Shown: positions 34,829 through 37,757 of the stretch, one piece after another | Position numbering within the stretch: position 1 is the first letter of the stretch | How the letters are laid out: every line of letters starts with the position of its first letter | Source of the DNA: Tardiphaga sp. | GTDB lineage: Bacteria > Pseudomonadota > Alphaproteobacteria > Rhizobiales > Xanthobacteraceae | Length of the DNA: 64,000 nt | NCBI RefSeq assembly: GCF_028290495.1 | Contig: NZ_JAQGJT010000047.1 | Coordinates: 1 to 64,000, forward strand | Direction: 5' to 3' | Program-made: the position numbers and the translations under genes | The notes under the pieces: generated by a model | Seen by the model: only the letters and a program-made list of their open reading frames with translations | Database searches by the model: none | What the model was told of the DNA's origin: nothing

Positions 34829-36070
34829 ATGACCTCCGTTGCCGAACCGATTGCCGCGGAGCCGACCCCGCCTGCTGTGCCGGCGAAGCCGCGTGCCGAT
34901 GCGGTGACATTGCCCGTAGTGGGCGAGCGCGAGTTGCGGCTCGACCTGTTCCGCGGGCTGGCGCTGTGGCTGATCTTCATCGACCACCTGCCGCCGAACA
35001 TCCTGACCTGGTTCACGATCCGCAATTACGGCTTCAGCGACGCCACCGAAATATTCATCTTCATCTCCGGCTATACCGCCGCCTTCGTCTATGGCCGCGC
35101 GATGCTGGAGCAGGGCACGGTAGTGGCCTCGGCCCGAATCTTCAAACGGGTCTGGCAGATTTATGTCGCCCACGTCTTCCTGTTCACGATCTTTCTGGCG
35201 GAAATCTCCTATGTCGCCACCAGCTTCGAGAACCCGCTTTATTCAGAAGAAATGGGCATCCTGGATTTCCTCAAGCAGCCCGATGTGACCATCGTTCAGG
35301 CGCTGTTGCTGAAATTTCGCCCGGTGAACATGGACGTGTTGCCGCTATATATCGTGCTGATGTTGTTCCTGCCGCCCATTCTCTGGTTAATGCGGCGCCG
35401 GGCGGACCTGACGCTGGCGCTGTCGGTGGCGCTGTATGCGCTGACCTGGGAATTCGACCTGTACCTCCCGGCCTATCCTAACGGGGTCTGGGCGTTCAAT
35501 CCGTTTGCCTGGCAGTTGCTGTTCGTGTTTGGCGCCTGGTGTGCGCTCGGCGGCGCCCGGCGGATGTCCAGAATTCTTTCTTCGCAGGTAACACTGTGGA
35601 TCTGCGTCGCCTATTTGCTGGCGGCGTTCTGGGTGACGCTGACCTGGTACATCCCGCAGATCCACCATCTGTTGCCCCGCTTCATCGAGCAGTGGATGTA
35701 TCCGATCAACAAGACCGATCTCGACGTATTGCGTTTCGCGCATTTCCTGGCGCTGGCGGCAATTACCGTCCGGTTCCTCAAGAAGGACTGGCCGGGGCTG
35801 AAATCGCCCTGGCTACGGCCGATGGTGTTATGTGGCCAGCATTCGCTCGAAATTTTCTGCATCGGCGTGTTCCTAGCTTTCGCCGGCCATTTCGTGCTGG
35901 CGGAGGTGGCCGGCGGTCCCTGGATGCACCTGATTGTCAGCATCTTCGGGATCTTCATCATGTCGGCAGCGGCTTGGGTGTTTTCGTGGTACAAGCGCGT
36001 CGCGGCCAAGGGCGGAACGCGCGCGAAAAGCGCCGACGCCAATGCCGATTTCGCGGGAGGGGGAGCATGA
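34829..36070 (+). CDS. opgC: OpgC family acyltransferase
   Basis: 413 residues, about ten membrane helices after a Pro/Ala-rich cytoplasmic N-terminus. RELRLDLFRGLALWLIFIDHLPPNI at residues about 32-57 is the OpgC/acyltransferase-3-like start, with the conserved His of IDH. Then FSDATEIFIFISGYTAAFVYGR and CGQHSLEIFCIGVFLAF near the C-terminus. OpgC transfers succinyl groups to osmoregulated periplasmic glucans. The stop overlaps the ATG of an SGNH-fold gene by four bases (ATGA), and a second SGNH gene follows with a one-base overlap, so the three are translated together. No glucan backbone synthase (opgGH/ndvB) is in the window. Confidence 0.85.
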   Translation: MTSVAEPIAAEPTPPAVPAKPRADAVTLPVVGERELRLDLFRGLALWLIFIDHLPPNILTWFTIRNYGFSDATEIFIFISGYTAAFVYGRAMLEQGTVVASARIFKRVWQIYVAHVFLFTIFLAEISYVATSFENPLYSEEMGILDFLKQPDVTIVQALLLKFRPVNMDVLPLYIVLMLFLPPILWLMRRRADLTLALSVALYALTWEFDLYLPAYPNGVWAFNPFAWQLLFVFGAWCALGGARRMSRILSSQVTLWICVAYLLAAFWVTLTWYIPQIHHLLPRFIEQWMYPINKTDLDVLRFAHFLALAAITVRFLKKDWPGLKSPWLRPMVLCGQHSLEIFCIGVFLAFAGHFVLAEVAGGPWMHLIVSIFGIFIMSAAAWVFSWYKRVAAKGGTRAKSADANADFAGGGA

Positions 36071-36825
36071 GGGCAATCTGGCTCACGATGCTGGCCGGGC
36101 TTTTGGTCACGACACCCGTGCGCGCTGAAGACGCCGCCGTTCCGGTCTGCGAGGTTCCGGCCTACCTTTTGACCTCCGAAAGCCGGCTTCCCAAGGTTGC
36201 CGGCGTGGTGAAGCCGGGCGGCAAGCTCAATATCCTCGTGATAGGCAGCCGTTCCTCGGTGATCGGCGCGTCCGACAGTTCCGCGGCCTATCCGGGCCGC
36301 TTGCAGGCCGTGCTGCGCGAGAAGCTTCCGGGCGTCGAGACCAATGTGACACTGGAGATGTACCCCAAGAAGACCGCCGAGGAACTGGCGCCGACGCTGG
36401 GAAAGCTCGTCGAGGAGCGCAAGCCGGATCTGGTGATCTGGCAGACCGGAACCTATGACGCGATGCGGTCCGTGGATGCCGACGATTTCCGCAATGCCCT
36501 CGATGAGGGCGTGGCAGCCATGAAATCGGCGGGAACCGACGTTGTTTTAATGAATCTTCAGTACAGTCCGCGCACTGAAACGATGATTTCCGGCTCGGCG
36601 TACCTAGATAACATGCGTGTGGTGGCGCAGCAGCACGACGCTCCGTTGTTCGATCGCTTTGCCATCATGCGGCAATGGAATGAGGCCGGTGATTTCGATC
36701 TGTTCAGCGCATCGCCCGGCCTCGAGCTTGCCAAGCGGGTTCACGATTGCCTCGCACGCGCGCTATCGACGTTTCTGATCGATGCGGCACACGTCAATCC
36801 AGCGGAGTTGAGGATTCAGCGTTAA
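36067..36825 (+). CDS. SGNH-fold periplasmic protein lacking catalytic residues
   Basis: 252 residues with a Sec signal (cleavage near VRAEDA). It aligns with the following SGNH hydrolase through KPDLVIWQ and AGTD-VVL-QYSP, so the two are tandem paralogues. Every catalytic position is changed. Block I reads IGSRSS (Arg62 where the Ser nucleophile should be). The block III Asn is Tyr130 (GTY for GTN). The DxxH of block V is PGLE (217-220). It is probably a non-enzymatic subunit, perhaps glycan-binding or a partner of OpgC or of the active paralogue. Confidence 0.75.
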   Translation: MRAIWLTMLAGLLVTTPVRAEDAAVPVCEVPAYLLTSESRLPKVAGVVKPGGKLNILVIGSRSSVIGASDSSAAYPGRLQAVLREKLPGVETNVTLEMYPKKTAEELAPTLGKLVEERKPDLVIWQTGTYDAMRSVDADDFRNALDEGVAAMKSAGTDVVLMNLQYSPRTETMISGSAYLDNMRVVAQQHDAPLFDRFAIMRQWNEAGDFDLFSASPGLELAKRVHDCLARALSTFLIDAAHVNPAELRIQR

Positions 36826-37757
36826 TGTTTGAGTTAAGCTTTTTGTCCCGTCGCGCGATGTTCCCTTTGGTCATATCCGCTCTGATGCTAACCACCCAGC
36901 TATCGCCCGTCCTCGCGCAGGGCGTGGTGATGACCGTGGCAACCAATGAACTGGACGTGCCGCAGAAGGGCGTGGCCGGCAAGACGATCGACAAGGTCAA
37001 GGAAGTTGCCAAGTCCGCCGCCGATATCTTCAGCCGGGTGCCGTGCCGCTCGCCGAAAGCCGGTGCGCACGCGATGGGTACGCTGTCGCGCGTGGCCGGC
37101 AAGCTCGCCGCCGGCGAGCCGGTCGTGATCATCGCCTTCGGGTCGTCCTCGACGGAGGGCTTCGGTTCGTCGGCGCCGGAGTTTACTTATCCCAACAGGC
37201 TGGCGGCGCAATTGCATCGCGCCTATCCGACCGCCAACATTACCGTGCTCAATCGTGGCAAGGGCGGTGAGGATGCGCCGGAAATGATGGCGCGGCTGCA
37301 GAACGAGGTCATCAATGCGAAGCCGGATCTGGTGATCTGGCAGGTCGGCACCAACGCCGTGCTGCGCAACCTCGATCCCGGCGATACCGCCAACATGGTC
37401 GAAGACGGCATCGGGAGAATCCAGGCGGCCGGCACCGATCTGGTGCTGGTCGATCCGCAATATTCGCCGGCGGTGAATCAGAAGCCAGAAAGCGCCAGCA
37501 AGATGATCGCGATGCTCAACAAGGTCGCGGCGCTGCGCCATGTCGGCATCTTCCCGCGCTTCGAAGTGATGCGGGAATGGCACGAGGGTCAGCAGATGGC
37601 ATTCGACAGCTTTGTCATAGCCGACGGCCTGCACATGAACGACTGGGGCTACGCCTGCTTCGCGCAGTTGCTTGGCGACAACATCATCAAGTCGGTCGGC
37701 CAGATCAAGTACGGCGTCAACGTGCCGTCGAGTGTGCACGCGCAGAAGCCGATGTAG
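36825..37757 (+). CDS. SGNH/GDSL-type periplasmic hydrolase or transferase
   Basis: 310 residues with an N-terminal signal (about 1-32, ending VLAQG). SGNH blocks are present: IAFGSSSTEGFGSS (Ser nucleophile about residue 108), NRGKGGEDA (block II Gly), VGTN (Asn about 177) and DGLHMNDWGY (Asp267/His270). Likely an esterase or acyltransferase acting on a glycan in the periplasm. The ATG shares one base with the TAA of its degenerate paralogue. Context with OpgC recalls OafA-like proteins, where an acyltransferase-3 membrane domain is fused to an SGNH domain. Confidence 0.85.
   Translation: MFELSFLSRRAMFPLVISALMLTTQLSPVLAQGVVMTVATNELDVPQKGVAGKTIDKVKEVAKSAADIFSRVPCRSPKAGAHAMGTLSRVAGKLAAGEPVVIIAFGSSSTEGFGSSAPEFTYPNRLAAQLHRAYPTANITVLNRGKGGEDAPEMMARLQNEVINAKPDLVIWQVGTNAVLRNLDPGDTANMVEDGIGRIQAAGTDLVLVDPQYSPAVNQKPESASKMIAMLNKVAALRHVGIFPRFEVMREWHEGQQMAFDSFVIADGLHMNDWGYACFAQLLGDNIIKSVGQIKYGVNVPSSVHAQKPM

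Follow-up and report, generated by a model that had tools for sequence, protein, structure and literature searches.

A three-gene operon of Tardiphaga sp. (assembly GCF_028290495.1, contig NZ_JAQGJT010000047.1, positions 1 to 64,000; this whole stretch of 64,000 nucleotides is the window) encodes the membrane acyltransferase OpgC followed by two SGNH hydrolase-type proteins, here called S1 and S2, of which the first has lost its catalytic residues and the second retains them. S1 is under purifying selection, with invariant residues of its own, and in the Pfam family to which both proteins belong (PF25182) loss of the catalytic triad accompanies adjacency to OpgC across the class and has arisen more than once. 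The interpretation towards which we lean is that OpgC and its SGNH neighbours make up a split machine for acyl transfer, in which a conserved pseudoenzyme is the dedicated partner of OpgC.

The three genes lie head to tail on the forward strand (Table 1); the stop codon of opgC overlaps the start of S1 as ATGA, and that of S1 overlaps the start of S2 as TAATG. OpgC exceeds the curated PF10129 cut-off (478.9 against 21.4 bits), while S1 and S2, with 287.3 and 180 bits, are both above the curated cut-off of 80 bits for PF25182. The coordinates, overlaps and family matches confirm that two tandem SGNH genes are coupled to opgC, as an initial annotation made from the sequence had proposed. OpgC, S1 and S2 occupy three separate reading frames rather than the single chain of an AT3-SGNH fusion.

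An SGNH protein was regarded as active when it carried Ser, Gly, Asn and His together with the Asp of the DxxH motif. The same annotation had listed Ser108, Asn177, Asp267 and His270 as retained in S2 and Arg62, Tyr130, Pro217 and Glu220 as their replacements in S1, and every one of these residues was found in place. Gly145 and Gly148 of block II in S2 are likewise conserved in 100% of 53 S2 rows and absent from S1. S2 is therefore predicted to be catalytically intact, an acyl transfer or esterase activity being a prediction from its residues, whereas S1 has the predicted alpha/beta SGNH fold without the active set. In the joint alignment, 56 S1 rows were compared (59 minus three partial ones, two from L040 and one from L067, with the window counted twice, as WIN and L006; loci and genomes are given by their L and G handles). 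The full catalytic set occurs in 0 of the 56, and the His column never contains His; single catalytic residues survive in a few rows, namely Asn in L053, Ser in L055 and Asp in L033 and L046.

Table 1. Genes and residues of the opgC operon in the window.
Feature	Position	Strand	Description and basis
opgC	34829..36070	+	membrane acyltransferase, OpgC_C family, 413 aa; PF10129 E 1.1e-143, 478.9 bits; PF01757 6.6e-10
OpgC R-X10-H motif near N-terminus	Arg42, His53		motif search
S1	36067..36825	+	SGNH-fold pseudoenzyme, 252 aa; probable signal peptide, residues 1-20 (by eye)
S1 Arg62	36250..36252	+	replaces catalytic Ser; alignment
S1 Tyr130	36454..36456	+	replaces block III Asn; alignment
S1 Arg169	36571..36573	+	invariant in 56/56 S1 rows; S2 column mostly Ala, 38%
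S1 Asp211	36697..36699	+	invariant in 56/56 S1 rows; S2 column 42% Asp
S1 Pro217 and Glu220	36715..36726	+	replace catalytic Asp and His; alignment
S1 His226	36742..36744	+	invariant in 56/56 S1 rows; S2 column 98% Tyr
S2	36825..37757	+	SGNH hydrolase-type protein, Ser/Asn/Asp/His intact, 310 aa; probable signal peptide, residues 1-31 (by eye)
S2 Ser108	37146..37148	+	predicted nucleophile; sequence, alignment
S2 Asn177	37353..37355	+	predicted oxyanion-hole residue; sequence, alignment
S2 Asp267 and His270 (DxxH)	37623..37634	+	predicted catalytic acid and base; sequence, alignment

The two SGNH proteins share a scaffold: their sequences show 32% identity across 217 aa (E 3e-31, far above chance), and a carbohydrate esterase, CEX, is the top structural match for the S1 model and the S2 model alike. 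Unrelated folds, the finding that the annotation had set as a refutation of its shared scaffold, are ruled out by these two results.

The opgC-S1-S2 order recurs, a point on which a survey had been proposed. A search with S1 gave matches in 67 of 101 genomes, and opgC with an S1-type gene is present in 55 of the 61 genomes of the window's family, a figure that includes three imperfect S1 genes (split in G006, partial or cut by a contig end in G004 and G008). The S1 type is missing from six family genomes. OpgC itself went unmatched in G018 and G060 and gave no more than a weak partial match in G057 (25.7 bits), whereas in G023, G025 and G035 a more distant OpgC precedes a different triad-less SGNH gene and an intact member lies elsewhere. 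Furthermore, a profile search of named genomes with S1 as query retrieved 432 relatives, of which the best 80 are considered here; they belong to Tardiphaga, Bradyrhizobium, Rhodopseudomonas, Nitrobacter and less precisely named relatives. Among these 80 loci, opgC adjoins S1 in all 80, S2 is present in 79, and Ser, Asn or His is kept by none of the S1 proteins (0/80). The S2 rows of the same loci have the complete Ser-Asn-Asp-His set in 76 of 80 cases, the remaining four being gapped at one or more of the columns. Since these loci were retrieved through S1, the figure of 80 out of 80 supports the link with opgC and not the universality of S1.

Selection on the three genes was estimated from the ratio of nonsynonymous to synonymous substitution rates (dN/dS) in pairs whose three dS values all lay within 0.1-0.8, giving 590 pairs among 90 loci and then 39 disjoint pairs, from a locus set in which at least one genome had entered twice (L022, L207). 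In the disjoint pairs the median was 0.146 for S1, 0.152 for S2 and 0.121 for OpgC, and in all 590 pairs 0.179, 0.181 and 0.133, respectively. The conservation of S1, its dN/dS and the invariants found only in S1 rule out a decaying copy; the reading of S1 as a pseudoenzyme, to which catalytic homologues would have been fatal, is thus upheld by relatives that lack the residues as well (0/56 and 0/80).

How often the triad was lost was examined in a tree of 95 SGNH rows from which the four catalytic columns had been removed. The S1 type forms a single clade of 32 triad-less rows (support 100/99). Apart from it stands an OpgC-linked lineage (100/93) whose 12 rows comprise nine triad-less and three intact members, and L071 is a further triad-less case outside both. 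The triad state changes four times in the tree, and also four times across the 5-95% range of bootstrap trees; in our reading of the tree, five losses are needed if lost triads never return. A single origin was rejected by the approximately unbiased (AU) test of one clade holding all 42 lost rows (p 1.5e-7), a group that was fixed by state after the first tree was known and in a data set with long branches. In the second lineage the residues have gone in stages: L294 and L295 keep Ser and Asn without Asp and His, L297 and L151 lack Asn in addition, L304 keeps Asp without Asn and His, L148 and L061 are without Asn, Asp and His, and nothing of the set is left in L302 and L303.

Both this tree and the first one represent a choice of family loci, with the split L117 excluded from each; the 95-row tree also leaves out 16 other loci and the dead member of L114, which has a very long branch and grouped with the main lost clade in the first tree. 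The states of L271, L293 and L298 were read by eye from the sequences, and four rows (L152, which is the gene of L271, L293, L298 and L072) were set intact by hand, a step on which only L072 depended. All 42 lost rows come from loci with an adjacent OpgC. Most of them were, however, retrieved through OpgC or S1, which makes a tally over the class the fairer test of linkage.

In the class sample, PF10129 was detected in 58 of 289 genomes and PF25182 above the cut-off in 30 of 289. The four catalytic positions were read in 60 fetched OpgC regions and in the PF25182 genes unlinked to them, which gave 49 members above the cut-off (a split gene in G326 being counted once). Twenty of the 49 are triad-less and all 20 adjoin OpgC, 21 are intact and OpgC-adjacent, and eight are unlinked to OpgC. 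These eight all keep Ser, Asn and His; Asp stands in the usual place in seven and is shifted by two residues in L072 (G000:C77:3083-3751), which was scored as intact in the tree and in the tally. A DxxxxH arrangement, with Asp two residues farther from His, is found in L322 as well, also away from opgC. For some unlinked members (L276, L281) the contig is short or ends close by, and an OpgC neighbour could escape notice. In none of the 60 regions did a reading frame match both OpgC and SGNH.

On the scale of the phylum, PF25182 (E <=1e-20) was present in 25 of 299 genomes, all from the window's class, the share of the 299 that lies outside the class not being stated. Of the 46 places listed, those in G579, G563, G524 and G479:C171 were not read. 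Twelve further loci came from this sample. Ser, Asn and His are kept in all nine that show no OpgC in the stretch (L315-L323); of the other three, L314 is dead and linked to OpgC, L325 (G360) is intact and likewise linked, and L324 is intact with OpgC about 1.1 kb away on the opposite strand.

Where the dead and live genes are apart, it is the dead one that stays beside opgC. An intact SGNH gene is found away from the operon, with the dead one next to opgC, in G135, G331, G228, G289 and G383, and the same separation occurs in G023, G025, G035 and G024; G034, with its intact gene (L075) at one contig end and its S1 close to a second, was for that reason not counted. Moreover, L048 (G046:C279) has the tandem order opgC-S1-opgC-S1-S2, with a pseudoenzyme for each OpgC and a single intact SGNH gene in the locus. 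The separated genes and this tandem indicate that the tie to OpgC is stricter for the dead protein than for its live counterpart. Among the 20 class genomes with a dead member, 18 also carry an intact one.

For the membrane partner, a tree was built from 75 OpgC rows, in which 35 of the 36 members of one clade (SH-like approximate likelihood ratio test, SH-aLRT, 100) are SGNH-linked; eight of the 75 rows have a dead SGNH neighbour only. An SGNH partner is a trait of one large OpgC branch and of at least one other. OpgC is the PF10129 family within the AT3/TmAT superfamily (described in part of PMC12423673), and the R/K-X10-H motif of the first transmembrane helix (TMH1), common to the bacterial AT3 acetyltransferases treated in the relevant section of PMC7448272, was matched in 75 of 75 OpgC rows by a loose search of the first 90 residues. 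A gene of the MdoG/OpgG backbone-synthesis family is present elsewhere in the window's genome (643 bits), which fits an osmoregulated periplasmic glucan (OPG) substrate without proving it.

In the arrangement we propose, OpgC would move an acyl group, by family presumably succinyl, from cytoplasmic coenzyme A across the inner membrane. S2, probably periplasmic, would accept the group on Ser108 and hand it to a glycan, a transferase role suggested by analogy: in published models the SGNH serine receives the acyl group from the AT3 part, and the glycan receives it from there (outlined in part of PMC12148441), and the AT3-only protein WecH is able to feed the soluble SGNH protein PatB (an extract of PMC9558356), so that OpgC would by analogy feed S2. 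As S1 lacks the catalytic residues and is nevertheless tied to OpgC, it is proposed as the subunit that most likely docks to OpgC and either holds the acceptor glycan or brings S2 into position. A dead SGNH protein kept in most sampled members of the family probably has a job in the handover of the acyl group to the sugar.

Several observations weigh against this arrangement. Thirty-two of the 75 OpgC rows, including a clade of 18, have no SGNH neighbour in the fetched stretch, and the window's own genome supplies one of the unlinked genes, a second OpgC (L106, G000:C17:3500-16500) that is the single exception in the clade of 36 and has no SGNH neighbour in the 13 kb fetched. Unlinked OpgC genes being this common, OpgC can work without a linked SGNH protein and the partner is not universal. 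Nor is the pseudoenzyme, as seven of the 75 rows have an intact SGNH gene only. No intact member was found in G222 (94% complete) and G326 (70%), both of which have a dead one, and L204 (Nitrobacter sp. Nb-311A) has opgC and S1 without an S2 in the 5 kb past S1. Finally, in L040 (G006:C1:640500-646500), from a one-contig genome, a frameshift splits S1; its second part is about 90% identical to the S1 of the window, which makes the break recent or a sequencing error.

Other explanations of the same operon were considered. S1 might pair with OpgC while S2 acts as an O-acyl esterase that trims or removes acyl groups, like Ape1 beside PatA/PatB, so that the operon would both add and remove them. 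We regard this as possible but doubtful: an esterase cannot be told from a transferase by the fold matches, the transferase PatB being likewise an SGNH protein (PMC12148441, in part), and the position of S2 directly behind S1 in most sampled family genomes speaks against it. It is unlikely, in turn, that S1 is alive through an active site rebuilt from some of Arg169, Asp211, His226, Asp131 and Ser63. The complete invariance of Arg169, Asp211 and His226 in the S1 rows, not seen in S2, and the 93% conservation of Ser63 would suit such a site; however, the Ser63 column is also 98% Ser in S2, next to the true nucleophile, which gives it a structural look, and neither the block II glycines nor the block III Asn are conserved in S1. 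It is very improbable that S1 is a functionless duplicate, either dying or recently lost. The lost triad and the one frameshifted S1 are what such a duplicate would present, but selection and conservation already contradict it, with a 32-row triad-less clade, a dN/dS of 0.146, invariants of its own and retention in 55 of 61 family genomes.

The split OpgC and SGNH machine has likenesses in known acylation systems. The AT3-SGNH fusions OafA, OafB and OatA share with it a membrane acyltransferase of the same superfamily, an extracytoplasmic SGNH module and, as far as the section cited of PMC7448272 goes, the R/K-X10-H motif of bacterial AT3 TMH1, which OpgC also has; here, by contrast, the parts are separate, the SGNH proteins are two, one of them dead, and the membrane part belongs to OpgC_C. 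Of the split OafA-type design put forward in the initial annotation, the conserved OpgC-linked SGNH pair stands, and the likeness to OafA is reduced to one of function. In the MBOAT and SGNH systems (PatA/PatB/Ape1 and AlgI/AlgJ/AlgX), membrane and SGNH proteins are also separate, with two SGNH proteins of divided roles (portions of PMC4148444 and PMC12148441). In alginate acetylation, for example, AlgJ and AlgX differ in role, and AlgX, not AlgJ, binds the polymer well; OpgC is not an MBOAT, however, and AlgJ has a catalytic triad, unlike S1 (both points on AlgJ from the same portion of PMC4148444). The stand-alone OpgC/MdoC glucan succinyltransferases belong to the same family as the membrane protein of the operon, and the available text of PMC9558356 describes them as stand-alone and mentions no SGNH partner, whereas the operon has two.

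The literature searched, which did not extend to closed-access papers and was in part available as extracts, contained no description of an opgC-linked SGNH pair, and the word NonGDSL, the name of PF25182, was found in none of its papers; the name itself suggests that a missing motif had been noticed earlier. AT3-only proteins may have a partner as yet unknown (a passage of PMC9833829), and whether AT3-only acyltransferases require one, and how transfer is completed without an SGNH domain, is posed as a question in the text available from PMC9558356. The operon offers a conserved, genetically linked partner pair for a protein of the AT3 superfamily; the partner ranges naturally from intact to dead, and the set includes cultivable and mutable genera (Bradyrhizobium, Rhodopseudomonas), which makes the question testable. 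The wider proposition, for and against which we see the case as evenly balanced, is that, within one large alphaproteobacterial branch, OpgC-type enzymes work with SGNH partners that are separate proteins, one of which repeatedly became a pseudoenzyme and an obligatory OpgC subunit. If true, this would add a third design of transmembrane acylation (a split AT3 with a pseudo-SGNH and an active SGNH) to MBOAT with SGNH and the AT3-SGNH fusions. The repeated origin of a pseudoenzyme beside the same membrane enzyme would also suggest that the SGNH fold can serve as a scaffold independently of catalysis.

Scans for promoters and terminators were uninformative, with three promoter-like sites against 1.0 expected and four terminator-like sites against 3.3 expected. 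The four-base overlap between the S1 start and the opgC stop is possible in 93 of 134 loci, a count in which some genomes occur in both locus sets, and the other 41 have a start nearby. In one genome of the family, G020, the opgC-S1-S2 operon occurs twice, each copy on its own contig (L044 and L045).

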